6,266 nucleotides of DNA from an uncultured candidate division Zixibacteria bacterium (GTDB taxonomy: Bacteria > Zixibacteria > MSB-5A5 > GN15 > FEB-12). How positions within the stretch are numbered: position 1 is the stretch's first letter; each line of letters begins with the position of its first letter. The notes beneath the pieces are model-generated. The model ran no database searches. It saw only the letters and a program-made list of their open reading frames with translations, and was not told where the DNA came from. A program made the translations under genes and the position numbers. The stretch is taken from the NCBI GenBank assembly GCA_913009765.1, contig CAJVYT010000267.1, positions 1-6,266 of the forward strand. The letters are read 5' to 3'. Shown one piece after another: positions 1-6,205 of this stretch.

Positions 1-82
1 TATGTTTTTTTTTTTTCAAGCAGAAGACGGCATACGAGATATATCAGTGTGACTGGAGTTCAGACGTGTGCTCTTCCGATCT
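1..82. other. Illumina P7/TruSeq adapter, not genomic
   Basis: Positions 17-40 are the 24-base Illumina P7 flow-cell sequence. Positions 41-48 (ATATCAGT) are an index, and 49-82 are the 34-base TruSeq read-2 adapter ending in CTTCCGATCT. Read in the opposite orientation the index is ACTGATAT, which fits TruSeq index 25 (ACTGAT plus AT) as I remember it. The 12 T residues at 5-16 match the A-run that Illumina reads show after reading off the end of the P7 adapter. Genomic sequence therefore begins at about 83. An open frame with a GTG at 66 runs from the adapter into the next gene, but its first codons are adapter-encoded. Confidence 0.98.
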
Positions 83-83
83 G

Positions 84-383
84 GTTATTGTTAATATTAT
101 CGCCGTATTTAATCCCCAGATCGTTATTGTTAATTGTTCTTATCTGCCGAACCCCGATGCCTTTTTAACCCTGGTGAAAAAGAGGGTTGCCGAATATTTA
201 CCTGCAAAACCGCATCGGACAATAAATATAGTTAATTCAAAACTGGATGATAAAACAGAAGTTGTGGGCGCTGCTGCAGCAATTATCAATCACAGCAGAT
301 TCCATTTTGTTATTCATGAAGATGTTCCCGCATTTTTCAATCAACAGAGTTTGTTAAAAACTGATTCTAATCCATATGTCTAA
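84..383 (+). CDS. ROK-family protein, C-terminal fragment
   Basis: The last 99 codons of a ROK (repressor, ORF, kinase) protein; the family contains sugar kinases and sugar-responsive repressors of the NagC/XylR type. The visible part starts at VIVNIIAVFNPQIVIVN, matching the family segment in which an N-i-x-x-x-x-NP-e-x-I-v-i motif forms the core of the second ATPase-like lobe. It ends with KLDDKTEVVGAAAAII, matching the usual dagllGAA element near the C-terminus. The sugar and ATP sites, and any N-terminal winged helix, lie beyond the contig end, so kinase and repressor cannot be told apart. The usual GG after the I-V-I strand is replaced by NC (IVNCSYLP), which suggests a divergent member. 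A tail of about 25 residues follows the GAA motif. The fragment is open to a TAA stop; its 5' truncation is caused by the contig end and adapter, not by decay. Confidence 0.75.
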   Translation, partial: VIVNIIAVFNPQIVIVNCSYLPNPDAFLTLVKKRVAEYLPAKPHRTINIVNSKLDDKTEVVGAAAAIINHSRFHFVIHEDVPAFFNQQSLLKTDSNPYV

Positions 384-401
384 AATCGGTGTGTACCGAT
401 T
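384..401 (+). terminator. Short hairpin after the ROK gene
   Basis: A perfect 7-bp stem, AATCGGT / ACCGATT with loop GTGT, starts at the base after the ROK stop codon. It is followed by AAAATATTT, not by a clean T-run, so it is a weak intrinsic terminator at best. Its position suggests it ends or protects the ROK transcript. Confidence 0.35.
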
Positions 402-448
402 AAAATATTTGTAATAGTTCAGCCCCTTTTCGTGATTTTTGGATTTTA

Positions 449-478
449 TTTACACAAGATGCTTACGTTCGGTAGAAA
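449..478 (+). promoter_or_regulatory. Candidate promoter of the DruA-like gene
   Basis: TTTACA at 449-454 (5 of 6 to the sigma-70 -35 box) and TAGAAA at 473-478 (4 of 6 to the -10 box) are separated by 18 bp and lie just upstream of the ATG at 498. The implied leader is about 12 nt and no Shine-Dalgarno sequence is visible in it. The region is AT-rich, so chance matches are likely. Confidence 0.3.
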
Positions 479-497
479 TATATGATATTTATGGTTC

Positions 498-1376
498 ATG
501 CAGGAACTATTCAGTTATCGAGGTAAGATCTTAACAAAAGACGATGTAAGCTTTATTCGAAATCTTATTGCTGAGAATCCCGATGCGAGCCGTTGGGCTT
601 TATCAAAAAAACTCTGCATTGCCTGGGATTGGGTGCAGCCTAACGGTGCTTTGCGTGACATGGTGTGCAGATCTCTTATGCTTCGTCTTCAAGAAGCAGG
701 ACATATCAAACTACCAGCCAAGAAAAGGAACCCGGACAACCCCCTTGTAAATAGAAAGCACCCTGAAAAAGTAGAAATAAATCAAACACCGATAAATAAA
801 AGCTTATCAGAAATCCTGCCAATTGAAATAAGACAGGTTCGACGAACACCCTTCGAAAGAACGGCCAATAGCCTTATCGAGCATTACCACTATCCGGGCT
901 ATTCTCATCCGGTTGGCGAGCAGCTTAAGTATATAGTGTTTGCAAAAGGCAGACCGATAGCCTGTCTGAATTGGTCTTCGGCACCACGTCATATTGGTTG
1001 TCGGGACCGGTTTATTGGATGGGGGCCTGAATCCCGTAAAAAGAACCTTCATCTTATTGCCTATAACAGCAGGTTTCTGATATTACCATGGGTACACGTA
1101 AAATTTCTTGCTTCGCACTTATTGGGAAAAATGGCGAGGGTGCTTCCTGTTGACTGGCGGAGCGTGTATAATCACCCTCTGTATTATCTTGAGACTTTCA
1201 TCGACGGAGATCGGGGGTTTACCGGCAGCTGTTATCGTGCCGCTAATTGGATTGATGTTGGCTGCACAACCGGGCGAGGGAAAAATGATCAGACCAGAAA
1301 GGTTAATCGATCGCTTAAAACGGTTTTGGGCTACCCATTGTCAAAGCACTTTCGGGAGATCCTGCAACATGGATAA
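498..1376 (+). CDS. DUF4338 / DruA-like protein, mobile-element associated
   Basis: A 292-residue full-length DUF4338 protein, the family named for DruA of the Druantia anti-phage system. Residues 8-75 form a helical, probably DNA-binding, N-terminal part with the motif SRWALSKKLCIAWDWVQPNG. The conserved core follows: HYHYPGYSHPVGEQLKY (129-145), LNWSSAPRHIGCRDRFIGW (157-175), LIAYNSRFLILPWV (186-199), LETFID (231-236), CYRAANW (245-251) and GRGK (259-262). No frame break is seen, so it is probably functional. The biochemical activity of the family is not something I can state. The ATG at 498 is the only usable start: the frame has a TGA at 483, and no clear Shine-Dalgarno is present. The 3' end overlaps the IS66-type tnpC by 8 bp, so the two are probably translationally coupled. 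No DruB-E genes are nearby, which makes a transposon-accessory role likelier than a complete Druantia locus. Confidence 0.85.
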   Translation: MQELFSYRGKILTKDDVSFIRNLIAENPDASRWALSKKLCIAWDWVQPNGALRDMVCRSLMLRLQEAGHIKLPAKKRNPDNPLVNRKHPEKVEINQTPINKSLSEILPIEIRQVRRTPFERTANSLIEHYHYPGYSHPVGEQLKYIVFAKGRPIACLNWSSAPRHIGCRDRFIGWGPESRKKNLHLIAYNSRFLILPWVHVKFLASHLLGKMARVLPVDWRSVYNHPLYYLETFIDGDRGFTGSCYRAANWIDVGCTTGRGKNDQTRKVNRSLKTVLGYPLSKHFREILQHG

Positions 1377-2066
1377 AAATCAAGCCGAAGTGCTCTATGA
1401 TTCAGGGAAAATACCTACAGTAGAGAAACTGTTGGAATACGATAGAGAGAACAGAGAACTTAAAGAAAGAAACGCCAGACTTGAAAGTAATTCTCAAAAC
1501 TCGTCGAAACCACCATCGACCGACAACCCGCAGCAAAAAGAGCAAAGAAAACAAAACAGTACTAAAAAGAAAAGCGGTCGTAAGCCCGGCGGTCAGCCTG
1601 GTCATAAAGGTAACAATCGAGAATTGATCCCGGTTGAAGAAGTAAAAGAAGTCATTGCTTGCTATGCCGAAGAGTGCAAGAGCTGCAAGTGGTTCTCCGG
1701 ATGTAAGAAAAACCATGTGTTGAGCGAACCGCTGCGGTGGCAACACGTAGAAATACCGCCGATAGAGCCTGAGGTGACCGAATACCAGGTTTTCACTCTT
1801 TGTGGAAGATGCGGCAAAGCGCACCGCGGTTCCTTACCAACTGGAGTATCAATGTCAAATTTCGGACCGCGACTAACGGCTATGGTTGGTTATTTCACAG
1901 CTGTTCTGCATGTTTCTCGACGAATGGTGAAAGAATGTTTTGAAACACTACTTGGCGTACGCTTGGCATTAGGATCAATCCAGAATTTGCTGGAACAGAC
2001 ATCTAAGGCACTACACCCGATGGATAAAGAATTGAAGGAAGCATTACCAAAAGAAACAGTACTCGG
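498..2066 (+). mobile_element. Remnant of an IS66-like element with a DruA-like gene
   Basis: The DUF4338 gene and the IS66-type tnpC are overlapping and co-directional, and look like one transposable unit. The right part, including the whole catalytic domain of tnpC and the right terminal repeat, is absent because T1 begins at 2067. The left end is not defined because there is no second end to compare; it should lie between the ROK stop at 383 and 498, and the stretch at 411-430 is one place to test. IS66 elements normally carry tnpA, tnpB and tnpC; neither tnpA nor tnpB is visible, as in the tnpC-only ISBst12-like subgroup. Confidence 0.6.
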
Positions 2067-2085
2067 TGTAATTTCGCAAATTAAA
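2067..2085 (+). repeat. T1 left terminal inverted repeat
   Basis: TGTAATTTCGCAAATTAAA; its exact reverse complement is at 4968-4986. The IS66-type coding homology stops at this point, which fixes the element boundary at 2066/2067. Confidence 0.93.
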
Positions 2086-2138
2086 TTAACCAAACCGTTG
2101 CACGTTGAATTGGACAAATTGGAAAATTATTTTGATGT

Positions 2139-2165
2139 AAAGAAAACCCGTCCAAACTGGACGGG
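2139..2165 (-). terminator. Intrinsic terminator of the T1 operon
   Basis: Read on the minus strand, CCCGTCCA, a 3-base loop GTT and TGGACGGG form a perfect 8-bp GC-rich stem (2147-2165) followed by TTTTCTTT. It lies 9 bp beyond the TAA stop of the ATPase gene and about 60 bp inside the left inverted repeat. It should end the operon transcript before it leaves the transposon. The broken IS66 frame on the other strand runs through this hairpin and stops just beyond it. Confidence 0.85.
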
Positions 2166-2174
2166 CTAAGAAAA

Positions 2175-2978
2175 TTATAAAATCTCTGTGGAAGCAATAC
2201 GAACATGTTCCGGAGTGACCATATAACTTTCTTCCATAGCAGCAGCCATCATGGCAGTTTTAGCAAGGAAATTAGCCTTCCTCAATAATCCACCTGAGCT
2301 CTGATGTATAGCAAAAATCGAATCCTCTGAAAATATGTTTTTTGTAGATCCAGCAAGTTTTAGATGGTGTCCTAAATATTCAATCATGACTTCTTTTCTA
2401 AGTGCTTCCAGATGAGATCTCCCTAAAACACGGGAAGCAAGAGGTCTGGCACTATTGGCCATAAGATGATCCAGAAGAAGATCCTGTCCACAAAGAATTA
2501 CCGGCATTACAGGTTGTGAATCATATTCGAATTGTATCAAAGTATGAAGCTGAGTAAAAACATTCTGCTTCAGAAGATGTGCTTCATCAATAACAAGCAA
2601 AGGGACCATTTTTCGTGAAACTATTTCCAATAACAATTCTCTGATCTGCTTAATAATAACAGATATTTGGTAAGAGCGGAAATGAACACCAAAAGAGAGA
2701 AGGATTTGCCTATACAACTCCATAAGACTGTAAGCACCGCCGACAATTGGAATTTGATGATATTCACTGGAATGACATTTACTCATGACATATCGCAGGG
2801 AGGTAGATTTACCGGCACCTACATCCCCAGTGATAACAGAAATGGCTTTCTGTTCTATGGCAAAGAATACTCTTTTTTCAAGTGGTGCAAGGGAAGGGAG
2901 CGGATATAAATCTCTAACAGGAATGTTCTGAGGAAAGGGATCTTTTTTTAATCCGAAGAAATGTCTTAAATTATCCAT
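2175..2978 (-). CDS. AAA ATPase, TniB/IstB/ExeA-like transposition protein
   Basis: A 267-residue P-loop ATPase of the ExeA/TniB-like AAA group. It opens with the family signature FFGLKKDPFP (7-16), then Walker A GDVGAGKST (51-59), Walker B PLLVIDEAH (126-134), a sensor-1-like ILCGQ strand (161-165) and arginines around 183-187 that could serve as the finger. A C-terminal helical lid follows, with SGGLLRKANFLAK at 228-240. In related systems (MuB, TniB, IstB, TnsC) such ATPases load on target DNA, recruit the transposase and help avoid self-insertion; that role is inferred here from family and context. Its start overlaps the transposase stop in a TAATG, with AGGAGG six bases upstream (2985-2990), so translation is probably coupled and efficient. 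No defects are visible. Confidence 0.9.
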   Translation of the reverse strand: MDNLRHFFGLKKDPFPQNIPVRDLYPLPSLAPLEKRVFFAIEQKAISVITGDVGAGKSTSLRYVMSKCHSSEYHQIPIVGGAYSLMELYRQILLSFGVHFRSYQISVIIKQIRELLLEIVSRKMVPLLVIDEAHLLKQNVFTQLHTLIQFEYDSQPVMPVILCGQDLLLDHLMANSARPLASRVLGRSHLEALRKEVMIEYLGHHLKLAGSTKNIFSEDSIFAIHQSSGGLLRKANFLAKTAMMAAAMEESYMVTPEHVRIASTEIL

Positions 2979-4261
2979 TAGAATCCTCCTGCAATGGTAT
3001 TACTTTCAAATAGCCTTCCACCTGTAGGTTTTGGGTCATCCGGTTCTATCTTATCTCGCCTCATACGGCTGTTGATATGAGGATCCAGAGGTGATAAAAA
3101 TCCTTTAGATACCTCATCTACAAATACTTCGATTCTGTAATGATTTTCATAGCGAAGAGTTATTTTTTGGCCGACCAGACCAACAGGGGCTTCAAAAAGC
3201 AGGCCGTCGAGTTTTACAGTTCTATCCTTGTTTACAAGCCTTATTTCTTTTTTTCTAAAATATTCGGGAAGGTCATCCGGTGCTCTTCTAAGGTTTTGTC
3301 CATCCTTCAAATATCTCTCGATAGGAGTTTGACCGGTTGTTCCATGTATACGGGTATGGTAGGTATTCTCAACATAATTGGAAAATCTTTCATTTAATTC
3401 CGGGAGCGTAAGATTATCCGGTAATTCAGTCATAAATTGCCCCCTCACTGTCCTGAAATATCTTTCTATCTTTCCCTTACCCTGCGGCCTGTAGGGTCGT
3501 GCATAGCTTAGAGAGATACCTAAACCGGCACATCCCAATTGCAATCTGTGAGATCGGAACGACGGGCCGTTATCGACATAGAGCTTTCTGGGAACTCCTC
3601 TCTTTTTCATGGCTGTCCAGATACAGTTTAGGTAGTTATCTATATTTTCTGCCAGGTAAAACTGTCCATGAGTTATTAGACGGCTATGATCATCAATCAA
3701 AGCAAACAGATACGTTTTTCTAATTTTCCCTTCATGCATTACTGTTCCGCCGTGCATGCAGTCTGACTGCCACAGGTCATTCGACATCTGCACTTCAAAT
3801 TTACGCATGTCTTTTTGTTTTTTCTTTTTCTTTAATTTGTGTTGTTTCATAAACCTGTAGACTGTTGCCATGGAGACATCTTTCTCTCCAGGCAATAAAC
3901 CGGAGGAACGAGCTCTCTCCACCAGACGGCACACTGAAAGGTGTGGGTTGTCGGATCTTAAGGTGATAAGAGCATCCATGGCTTCATCATCTATACTACG
4001 GCTGTGCCCTCTATCACCTCGATCTTTTGGGTAAAGGGCTTCTATCTTCCGTCCTCCTTTTTCATAACATCCCAACCAGTTAAGAATTGTTGCGCGACTT
4101 ATGAAGGTTCTGTTTGAATATGGAATATTCCATTCTGTACTTACCAACTCTTTTAGAATACTCTCTTTTTCTCCCCAATGTTCATGTACATTACATTCAA
4201 CCAGTGGGAAGATAACTCCAAAACGGAAGATTGCTACTTTCTCTTTTTTTTCACTATCCAT
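2978..4261 (-). CDS. DDE transposase with rve and Mu-C-like domains
   Basis: A 427-residue transposase that should cut and join the T1 ends. Residues 30-140 are an N-terminal DNA-binding region with HTH-like helices (SRATILNWLGCYEKGG at 55-70; MATVYRFMKQHKL at 131-143), followed by a lysine-rich linker KLKKKKKQKD (142-151). The RNase H-like rve core carries D167 (WQSDCMHG), D230 (LYVDNGPSF) and E266 (GKGKIERYF), a DD(35)E spacing. HTRIHGTTGQTPIERY (302-317) and a beta-rich Mu-C-like domain (about 338-390) follow. The frame is open from 4291, but the ATG at 4261 is preferred because AGGAGG lies 7 bases upstream. The triad is intact, so the enzyme is probably active. It sits between the zinc-ribbon gene (47-bp gap) and the ATPase gene (1-bp overlap), like TniA/TniB or IstA/IstB pairs. 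Confidence 0.92.
   Translation of the reverse strand: MDSEKKEKVAIFRFGVIFPLVECNVHEHWGEKESILKELVSTEWNIPYSNRTFISRATILNWLGCYEKGGRKIEALYPKDRGDRGHSRSIDDEAMDALITLRSDNPHLSVCRLVERARSSGLLPGEKDVSMATVYRFMKQHKLKKKKKQKDMRKFEVQMSNDLWQSDCMHGGTVMHEGKIRKTYLFALIDDHSRLITHGQFYLAENIDNYLNCIWTAMKKRGVPRKLYVDNGPSFRSHRLQLGCAGLGISLSYARPYRPQGKGKIERYFRTVRGQFMTELPDNLTLPELNERFSNYVENTYHTRIHGTTGQTPIERYLKDGQNLRRAPDDLPEYFRKKEIRLVNKDRTVKLDGLLFEAPVGLVGQKITLRYENHYRIEVFVDEVSKGFLSPLDPHINSRMRRDKIEPDDPKPTGGRLFESNTIAGGF
2985..2990 (-). promoter_or_regulatory. Ribosome binding site of the ATPase gene
   Basis: AGGAGG on the minus strand, 6 bases before the ATG at 2978. It lies inside the last codons of the transposase gene, so the ATPase can be translated efficiently despite the TAATG overlap. 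Confidence 0.85.
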
Positions 4262-4268
4262 AAGGATA

Positions 4269-4274
4269 CCTCCT
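4269..4274 (-). promoter_or_regulatory. Ribosome binding site deciding the transposase start
   Basis: AGGAGG on the minus strand with 7 bases before the ATG at 4261. It selects MDSEKKEK as the N-terminus; the longer frame from 4291 would have this site inside its coding sequence. Confidence 0.88.
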
Positions 4275-4308
4275 GAAAAATTTATTCTCATTTAAAAATA
4301 AATCAGGA

Positions 4309-4857
4309 CTATCCTGCTGTCACCGCAAAAGGCAGGTAGGGCGGGTCACTGTCATGGTATATTCTGCGGTATTTCAACCTGAATGTTACCTGCTTTTGAC
4401 CACTCTTAATGAAGGTCATAAAAAACTCCATTGGGCTTAACCAGCTTTCCACCAGCTTACTCTGGAACTTAAATGCCTTCATCCAGTACTGTTGATTCTG
4501 ACGAGGAATATCTAAGACAAATGGATTTCCTTCCAATTTGGTTAACAGCGATCTGTTTATCATTTTTTTTGGATACTGAAAGCCTGCGGGATATTCACAA
4601 GGCTTTGTTGTGTGGACTGCTCCACAATCAGGACATCGCCACCTCTTCATCCAGATTCCAGATACATATTCGTAGAAATATCTAAGGACAAATCCATGAC
4701 CCCATAGGCGTATACTTTTACATGAAGGACAAACTTTTGGCTTTTCCCATGGATATTTCTTCCCAAGCTCTTGAATTCTTTGCAAATCTATCCGAAAAAG
4801 AAGTAACAGTGTATTCCTCCCTTTGGGAGAGGGGTTGTATTTGGGGCATGTGGTCAT
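4309..4857 (-). CDS. Zinc-ribbon protein of T1, DUF6431-like
   Basis: A 182-residue first gene of the T1 operon. It has a treble-clef or zinc-ribbon pattern: CPSC (C43, C46), then KSIRLWGHGF, then WRCPDCGAVHTTKP (C75, C78) and a FQYPKKMI-like segment. This C-x2-C / HG / R / C-P-x-C-G-x-x-H-x-x-x-P layout resembles DUF6431, a family I associate with transposon-linked proteins. The C-terminal 80 residues are basic and aromatic (QYWMKAFKF, RLKYRRIYHD). A DNA-binding or accessory role in transposition is inferred from the motif and operon position only. The ATG at 4857 has a GGAG 14 bases upstream, which is far. A GTG at 4869 in the same frame (186 residues) is the alternative, but its GGAG is only 2 bases away. 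The start is therefore uncertain by four codons. Confidence 0.75.
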   Translation of the reverse strand: MTTCPKYNPSPKGRNTLLLLFRIDLQRIQELGKKYPWEKPKVCPSCKSIRLWGHGFVLRYFYEYVSGIWMKRWRCPDCGAVHTTKPCEYPAGFQYPKKMINRSLLTKLEGNPFVLDIPRQNQQYWMKAFKFQSKLVESWLSPMEFFMTFIKSGQKQVTFRLKYRRIYHDSDPPYLPFAVTAG

Positions 4858-4888
4858 TTTCGTGGACACTGCTCCATTTTTTTATCTT

Positions 4889-4917
4889 CGGATATTAGGA
4901 TTTTTAATCTAAGTCAA
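4889..4917 (-). promoter_or_regulatory. Candidate promoter of the T1 operon
   Basis: On the minus strand, TTGACT (4917-4912; 5 of 6 to the -35 box) is followed after 17 bp by TATCCG (4894-4889), a weak -10; an overlapping CTAATATCC segment offers alternatives. It lies about 70 bp inside the right end and 30-60 bp before the first gene, where a transposase promoter is expected. Confidence 0.45.
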
Positions 4918-4967
4918 ATGATAATTTTTCTAACTCAATGTGAGAATTTTTAAGACAAATTTACTTT

Positions 4968-4986
4968 TTTAATTTGCGAAATTACA
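4968..4986 (-). repeat. T1 right terminal inverted repeat
   Basis: Reverse complement of the 19 bases at 2067-2085, with no mismatch. The match stops after TTAAA, and the tandem repeat of the Rpn-like gene begins at 4987. Confidence 0.93.
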
Positions 4987-5046
4987 TCTATTCCCTGTTC
5001 TATTCCCTGTTCTATTCCCTGTTCTATTCCTTGTTCTATTCCTTCC
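4987..5046 (-). repeat. Five 12-bp tandem repeats encoding EQGI
   Basis: Units TCTATTCCCTGT at 4987, 4999 and 5011 are identical, the one at 5023 has one change, and the one at 5035 has three. On the coding strand each reads GAACAGGGAATA (Glu-Gln-Gly-Ile). Such tails are common in Rpn-like proteins. T1 joins exactly at the edge of the first unit. Confidence 0.9.
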
Positions 5047-5402
5047 TGTCTTAACTTCATTGCAGTTGTCATAGCTATCTCTCCCCCTTCCGGTGATATC
5101 ATATTCAAACATTTTTCCATATATTTATTATCTATTTCGGTTATACTCATTATATAGATTATAAAGGTTATTATTACGCCGCTCTTCTCATTTGGGAAAA
5201 AGTCTTTTATTAGAGAAAAAATATCTTCCAGATGCATTTCTATATATTCTTCATCATTCATATGCTTAAAAAGCAATGCCATTACTTTATTAATATTACT
5301 ATTAAATTTCTCATTTATTATCACAGAATCCGGGATTTTTATCAAATCTGTAAGTATATATTTGAAATCAGGTATAAATTGTCTTAAGATTTCGTCAACC
5401 CC
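4987..5402 (-). pseudogene. Rpn/YhgA-like recombination-promoting nuclease, both ends lost
   Basis: A 416-bp in-frame remnant. The recognisable part starts at VDEILRQFIPDFKYILTDL, the conserved segment just after the PD-(D/E)XK nuclease core of Rpn-family proteins. It continues through the helical region to MTTAMKLRQEGIEQG and the GIEQ tandem tail typical of this family. The catalytic N-terminal half is absent because T2 starts at about 5403, and the natural C-terminus is absent because T1 begins at 4986. In the current sequence the frame stays open to 5447 (a TTG inside T2) and to a stop at 4950 inside T1, giving a 165-residue chimera ending VISQIKKVNLS. The lack of internal stops suggests recent truncation. 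With no nuclease motif it should be inactive. Confidence 0.75.
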
Positions 5403-5440
5403 TGTTACCTGCCAGCAACCATAGCCGCTGTTAAGCAAAC

Positions 5441-5506: not shown

Positions 5507-5517
5507 CTCTCCTTTTT
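5486..5517 (+). promoter_or_regulatory. Leader hairpin before the first T2 gene
   Basis: A 12-bp stem with one mismatch (AAAAAGAAGAGA with TCTCTCCTTTTT) and an 8-base loop CCTTAAAA ends 4 bases before the ATG at 5522. The T-rich 3' arm could act as a terminator or mask the translation start in transcripts that enter from outside the element. No Shine-Dalgarno is visible apart from the stem. Confidence 0.5.
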
Positions 5518-5521
5518 GACT

Positions 5522-6205
5522 ATGAATGCTAGACTCATTTCAGCATCACAATATAATTCGGCAGATTATCTCACTTTCTTAAGGTTCTTTTTTAACTATC
5601 ATCCTTGTTTTCTCTGTGGAAAAGTACATGAGTTTCATAATCACGGTAAAATTATTAGACTGATCAGAAATAGAGAGTCCTATGAGAACGAGCCAATCTT
5701 TATTTTTATAGCGTATTGCCCAGACAGTGAAGAAGCGGGAAATCAATATACAAAACGGATTTTACCCCCATTTTTAATTCCTGAATGCAATATAACACTG
5801 GAAAACTGCATGACACTATTTTTTGAGTTCTCGGGAAAGTCTATCGATTATGACAGAGCCTGCCAGCTGCTTGGAACCTATAGTGAGCGAACTGTCAGAC
5901 GTCATTATGCCCGGATAAACATGGTTCTTCATGAAGCAATCAGCTGGATTATAGCCTGGCTTGCAGCTCATCCGATTGTAGGCATGCTTCCATCGGGAAA
6001 TCCAAAACAAACACTGTGTGAATACTATATGGAAATCTATAACACCCTGCTTGCTGCACAAAACAAGCTCCACGGAAACACTGGAAGAAAACCTGATCCC
6101 ATTCTCTTCCCGGCGTATGTGTTTACCCTGAAAAATACCAGAAATCCCTCCCCCCTACCATTTGATTTAGTATATCTGATTCGATTTTTCTTTGATACAA
6201 GTTAA
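5522..6205 (+). CDS. First protein of T2, zinc/HTH-like
   Basis: A 227-residue protein that I do not recognise as a named family. Near the N-terminus it has CFLC (C29, C32) followed by histidines H36, H39 and H41, then after a basic RLIRNRES stretch a lone CPDSE (C66) and KRILPPFLIP (79-87). This parallels the T1 zinc-ribbon protein (CxxC, HG, arginines, CP, then a proline-rich strand), but the second knuckle has lost one cysteine. Residues 109-131 (ACQLLGTYSERTVRRHYARI and neighbours) look like a helix-turn-helix. The C-terminal part is aromatic and helical. A DNA-binding accessory or regulator of transposition is inferred from position and motifs. The ATG at 5522 is preferred to the in-frame TTG at 5516, which falls in the leader hairpin. 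The next gene starts 26 bases after its stop. Confidence 0.7.
   Translation: MNARLISASQYNSADYLTFLRFFFNYHPCFLCGKVHEFHNHGKIIRLIRNRESYENEPIFIFIAYCPDSEEAGNQYTKRILPPFLIPECNITLENCMTLFFEFSGKSIDYDRACQLLGTYSERTVRRHYARINMVLHEAISWIIAWLAAHPIVGMLPSGNPKQTLCEYYMEIYNTLLAAQNKLHGNTGRKPDPILFPAYVFTLKNTRNPSPLPFDLVYLIRFFFDTS

Follow-up and report, generated by a model that had tools for sequence, protein, structure and literature searches.

The 6,266-nucleotide contig CAJVYT010000267.1 of an uncultured candidate division Zixibacteria bacterium (the window, here and below) carries an intact three-gene transposon, T1, wedged between broken pieces of two unrelated genes: tnpC of an IS66-type element on its left and a gene of the Rpn family on its right. 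T1 is an ordinary autonomous DDE transposon from a clade that normally makes a 5-bp target duplication, and in the window no duplication flanks it. The junction is probably real and formed by a rearrangement at T1. By analogy with a related copy that can be traced in genome G006, we favour, with some reserve, the reading that T1 came in by a normal insertion and that a rearrangement at the element then replaced one of its neighbours. The phenomenon itself, an intact transposon at a rearranged junction, is already known; what the window adds is an example, worked out from sequence alone, of how such an element ends up between unrelated broken genes, and in G006 the lost half of the target duplication can be located on a remnant 21 kb away.

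The limits of T1 are exact. Read from the window, the element spans 2920 bp between inverted ends (TGTAATTTCGCAAATTAAA) that are identical at 19 of 19 positions, with identity dropping beyond them. Homology to genome G088 (91% nucleotide identity over window positions 2067–3119 and 88% over 4203–4986) ends at exactly the same two bases, 2067 and 4986, so the limits are independent of the window sequence, and misplaced ends can be dismissed. All three genes are open and lie on the minus strand; relatives suggest that the transposase probably starts at 4261 and the zinc-ribbon protein at 4857. By eye, the transposase has a DD(35)E pattern (WQSD, YVDNG, KIER). An earlier note on this DNA, made from its letters only, had described perfect 19-bp ends and three undamaged genes, and both parts of that description hold.

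The five bases to the left of T1 (CTCGG) and to its right (TCTAT) agree at none of the five positions. We find no direct repeat of 2–16 bp at the edges, and none of 5–6 bp even when either edge is moved by up to 4 bp, which rules out an overlooked target duplication. The missing parts of tnpC and of the Rpn gene are found nowhere else in the window. The earlier note had argued from the absent duplication and from the unrelated broken genes, whose other halves are not on the opposite side, that simple insertion cannot yield such flanks, and we concur. A simple insertion into an already existing tnpC–Rpn junction, with the duplication mutated away afterwards, is scarcely credible: both neighbours are mobile-element-type genes, which are often broken, but a complete loss of flank agreement would have had to leave the ends perfect and the three genes open. 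Nor did DNA searches covering 297 genomes of a single class (that of the Spirochaetia metagenome-assembled genome, or MAG, holding locus L001, to which G088 also belongs) bring up any natural tnpC–Rpn adjacency of the kind that the note had named as contrary evidence; this negative is weak, as tnpC itself is hardly found there (matches of only ~40–50 bp, several others at contig ends). In a protein search of six genomes the Rpn fragment has matches in G202, G160 and G001 and none in G178, G117 and G088, and the tnpC part has a match in G001 only.

To see what T1-type elements normally leave behind, both ends were sought in 23 copies, the remaining rve transposase loci being left out of this survey. 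Both ends were resolved in 15 copies; two are ambiguous (Cupriavidus, 4 bp; G181, weak ends) and in six an end is unresolved (G049, G122, G031, G106, G037 and S. subrutilus). Nine of the 15 carry a duplication of 5–7 bp. It is 5 bp long in close relatives of T1: AATGA in G088, CCCCT in G006:C3, ACGAG in G032, and GCTCC and CCCTT in G297; random 5-mers taken from the window coincide at a rate of 0.0016. The G088 ends lie on two contigs with no open frame across the joined flanks, the 5-bp match being the sole support for that case. The duplication is 6–7 bp in four plasmid copies (Sporosarcina, Geobacillus LC300, G. stearothermophilus and Metabacillus); in the ranking of candidate ends of plasmid copies a duplication earned a slight bonus, and in these four no candidate shown has a better inverted repeat than the ends chosen. 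The other six resolved copies have no duplication (window T1, G006:C1, G200, L001, G. thermodenitrificans and A. caldus), and copies without one are therefore common in the group. The L001 copy (4343–8424) is interrupted: T1-type ends with flanks GGGGG and GTCGT surround a zinc gene, a transposase gene that is broken, and several consecutive open reading frames (ORFs) resembling tyrosine recombinases. These ORFs apparently number three, the middle one with a frame break, and to the eye the whole looks like a T1 copy that has taken in a recombinase-trio element.

One way to account for such copies is that the element goes in without duplicating its target, say at a break in the DNA while a rearrangement is under way, a route that has been proposed for some IS5 and IS481 events. 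An excerpt of PMC11708052 does tie insertion sequence (IS) movements without duplications to a large deletion and, in a case involving an IS481 element, to a large duplication. For T1 we regard this as very unlikely, given the nine relatives with duplications and given that the sole duplication-less copy that could be traced proves to have made a normal duplication whose halves now lie at two different copies of the element.

This traced copy is in G006, a genome with two intact T1-type copies, C1 on a 2.4-Mb contig and C3, the one with a duplication, on a contig of 0.99 Mb. The C1 copy is bordered by unequal flanks, with GCTGT to its left and TTCGG to its right. Searched with the C1 region, the genome yields a further, partial copy, 461 bp of the left end of the element lying ~21 kb from the C1 copy in inverted orientation, and the outer flank of this remnant is again TTCGG. 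When the two outer flanks are joined with a single TTCGG, they align without a gap in the joint to an element-free IS91-like copy in the same genome (188/220 positions identical to the left of the joint and 382/454 to the right of it). This IS91-like copy is matched neither by the left flank of the C1 copy nor by the inner side of the remnant. For one flank of the C1 copy, then, the partner junction with the other copy of the duplication is present in the same genome. Judging by these alignments, the C1 copy did not insert without a duplication: the element entered an IS91-like gene in the normal way, and the insertion was afterwards divided between two element copies in opposite orientations.

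The G006 pattern is what an inversion would be expected to produce, whether it came from intramolecular replicative transposition or from inverted copies recombining with each other, if part of one copy was then lost. Since both pathways leave the same pattern, G006 does not tell them apart. Products of transposon-promoted adjacent deletions and inversions are described for other transposons in an excerpt of PMC2723962. As in the adjacent deletions and replicative inversions of Mu, Tn3 and Tn5, the T1-type element is intact, its flanks come from different places and the inverted pair in G006 has a common duplication; unlike them, the window displays only one of the two expected junctions. T1-type elements act as rearrangement junctions, and a widespread, apparently unnamed group of three-gene transposons thereby takes part in genome reshaping.

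For the window, a first step would be the insertion of an ancestral T1 either in tnpC, with CTCGG as the expected duplication, or in the Rpn gene, with TCTAT. In a second step, recombination with another T1 copy would join the other site to the opposite end of T1; alternatively, intramolecular (Shapiro-type) transposition would do so through an adjacent deletion or inversion. We also consider it possible, if rather unlikely, that the DUF6431-IS481-AAA elements to which T1 belongs (see below) are an undescribed Mu-like copy-in (replicative) group, in which transposition itself, with frequent inversions and adjacent deletions, makes the copies that have no duplication, and not recombination at a later time.

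Several observations weigh against a rearrangement at T1. The tnpC–T1–Rpn junction is the only one at hand, and its partners, the rest of tnpC at CTCGG and the Rpn tail at TCTAT, lie outside the data. In G006, the GCTGT flank is left without a located partner, which on the inversion account would have disappeared along with the other end of the remnant. The sequencing method of G006 is not given. The window contig itself contains a sequencing adapter (positions 1–82), therefore its reads were untrimmed. Among the relatives of the T1 transposase (the best 120 of 4125 are listed), the longest contig measures 2.8–3.25 kb in 46 of 120, 36 being shorter and 38 longer, so the T1-type element typically breaks assemblies, as expected of a multicopy element.

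The last of these points also bear on an assembly chimera, in which the assembler merged two T1 copies, one in tnpC and one in an Rpn gene (of one cell or of different cells), and then took the wrong way out. At its length T1 exceeds short reads and usual inserts, untrimmed reads and frequent element-length contigs fit this account, and the ROK gene at the left of the window leads in G178 and G117 to a transporter-like operon and not to Rpn. Against it, the same anatomy occurs inside the 2.4-Mb G006 contig, where it was traced to a separated insertion, and the 38 listed relatives on contigs above 3.25 kb indicate that passage through the element is not rare. At repeats of this kind, moreover, assemblers produce breaks more often than misjoins. 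We therefore hold a chimera to be possible but clearly less probable than a rearrangement. The earlier note had listed adjacent deletion, recombination between copies and chimerism. This was the right set: the G006 trace and the commonness of duplication-less copies strengthen the first two, and chimerism remains a rival to them. Contigs that run through T1-type elements call for caution and need long-read support.

T1 is a further member of a widespread, apparently unnamed three-gene group. Its trio of a zinc protein, an IS481-like DDE transposase and an AAA ATPase recurs in the same order in genomes of the class searched, including G006, G032 and G297, as well as on Bacillota, Cupriavidus and Streptomyces plasmids, whose annotations call the products DUF6431, IS481 or DDE transposase, and AAA ATPase or ATP-binding protein. 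The TGT...ACA ends, which together with the gene order place T1 in this DUF6431-IS481-AAA group, are likewise seen in G006, G032, G297 and the plasmid copies (those of the Streptomyces copy are not resolved). The plasmid elements (Geobacillus pGS18 and pGeo12a, Metabacillus pB218, Cupriavidus pBB2) match T1 in gene order, direction and ends, but their transposases are only 34–38% identical to that of T1. Duplication length differs as well, 6–7 bp in four Bacillota copies versus 5 bp in the clade of T1; judging from loci L129–L132, Bacillota relatives and those of T1's class apparently make these different lengths within one transposase group. A search of the open-licence literature with a few terms found no description of the three-gene combination; DUF6431 is mentioned in one paper. 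The T1 transposase has no match in viral contigs, and a phylum-wide search gave 2/392 at E ≤ 1e-60, both already among the known ones.

The T1 zinc protein scores 16.6 bits against Pfam DUF6431, under the cut-off of 26.6, and PF20020 (DUF6431) is annotated in 24 of 111 of its relatives among the matches listed; its link to DUF6431 therefore runs through these relatives. Its predicted structure (mean predicted local distance difference test score, pLDDT, 77.5) has no match at E ≤ 0.001 in a search of solved structures (PDB), and no TniQ match is listed for it in the Pfam profile scan. The best NCBIfam match of the transposase is IS481, at 189.8 bits under a curated cut-off of 224. IS481 elements are small, with one transposase gene and a length of about 1 kb. 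T1 differs from them by its two further genes, its 2.9 kb and the 5-bp duplications of its close relatives, IS481 elements mostly making 6-bp ones according to an excerpt of PMC10045372. Size, gene number and score speak against an assignment to the IS481 family. An assignment to the IS21 family fails on the transposase score (73.6 bits, curated cut-off 160), and one to the Tn5053/Tn7-like elements on the ATPase, which at 17.6 bits does not reach the Pfam TniB cut-off of 22.4. With the Tn552/Tn5053/Tn7/Mu superfamily T1 nevertheless has in common an rve DDE transposase beside an AAA ATPase, TGT...ACA ends and, in its close relatives, a 5-bp duplication; the AAA ATPase of Tn552 is also similar in size to that of T1. 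Unlike the superfamily, T1 has an ATPase under the TniB cut-off and a zinc protein with no match to a solved structure at E ≤ 0.001 and no TniQ match listed.

The features of the window are collected in Table 1. Its first 82 bases are what we take to be Illumina P7 adapter read-through (poly-T, P7, 8-nt index, adapter), joined directly to the position at which genomic homology to G178 and G117 begins. The host segment that follows shares 93% of its nucleotides with G178, 89% with G117 and 79% with G202. In G178 and G117 the next genes after the ROK gene (45 bp further on in G178) resemble, on visual inspection, an operon for a sugar ABC transporter, and the site at 411 is uninterrupted in G178. 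The IS66-type element that starts there has a left end, GTAATAGTTCAGC, that also begins an element in G166. Its TnpC retains the first 233 of 472 residues, the cut being made by T1, and the full length is supplied by a relative, P0233, that is 96% identical to TnpC over the common part; the left neighbour is indeed the N-terminal part of an IS66 TnpC, as first proposed.

Table 1. Features of the window and of the traced copy in G006.
Feature	Position	Strand	Evidence
Illumina P7 adapter read-through (presumed), sequencing artefact	1..82	.	Adapter-like sequence; G178 and G117 matches begin at 83
Host chromosome: C-terminal end of ROK-family regulator and ~27 bp downstream	83..410	+	Pfam ROK; nucleotide matches
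Left part of IS66-type element: DruA-like gene (PF14236) 498–1376 and first 233 codons of tnpC 1369–2066	411..2066	+	ORFs, profiles, relatives
T1 left terminal inverted repeat	2067..2085	+	19/19 repeat; limit agrees with G088
T1 AAA ATPase (AAA_22; weak sub-cut-off TniB-like match)	2175..2978	-	ORF and profile match
T1 DDE transposase (rve core; best NCBIfam match IS481, sub-cut-off)	2978..4291	-	ORF and profiles
T1 zinc-ribbon protein, DUF6431-like (sub-cut-off)	4309..4869	-	Profile match, relatives
T1 right terminal inverted repeat	4968..4986	-	19/19 repeat; limit agrees with G088
Internal fragment of Rpn-family gene, bounded by T1 (C-terminal side) and T2 (N-terminal side)	4987..5402	-	Protein match
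Left part of T2: end TGTTACCTG, zinc-protein ORF 5516–6205, start of next gene at contig end	5403..6266	+	End homology to G178:C250
G006 intact T1-type copy	L038 6261-9172
G006 inverted 461-bp remnant	L100 2019-2479

The right neighbour of T1 corresponds to residues ~138–273 of a 318-residue relative in G160 (64% identity), with ~45 C-terminal residues lost at T1 and ~137 N-terminal residues lost at 5403. The earlier note was correct in calling it Rpn-like; it is an internal piece, however, and not the C-terminal tail. The truncation on both sides, the second, related element that makes the right-hand cut, and the adapter at the start of the contig had all been overlooked. At the T1 edge (window 4987–5046) the Rpn fragment contains a 12-bp tandem repeat encoding GIEQ units; 14 of the 297 class genomes contain short matches to these bases, the matches not being established as Rpn genes.

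The second element, T2, is TGT-ended, distantly related to T1, and faces it across 416 bp of the Rpn gene. Its end matches an end in G178:C250, with homology beginning at 5403. The T2 zinc-protein ORF has 15 matching places, seven of which share a contig with a nearby rve transposase (G176:C12, G248:C78, G248:C189, G268:C515, G285:C354, G088:C208 and G287:C236).

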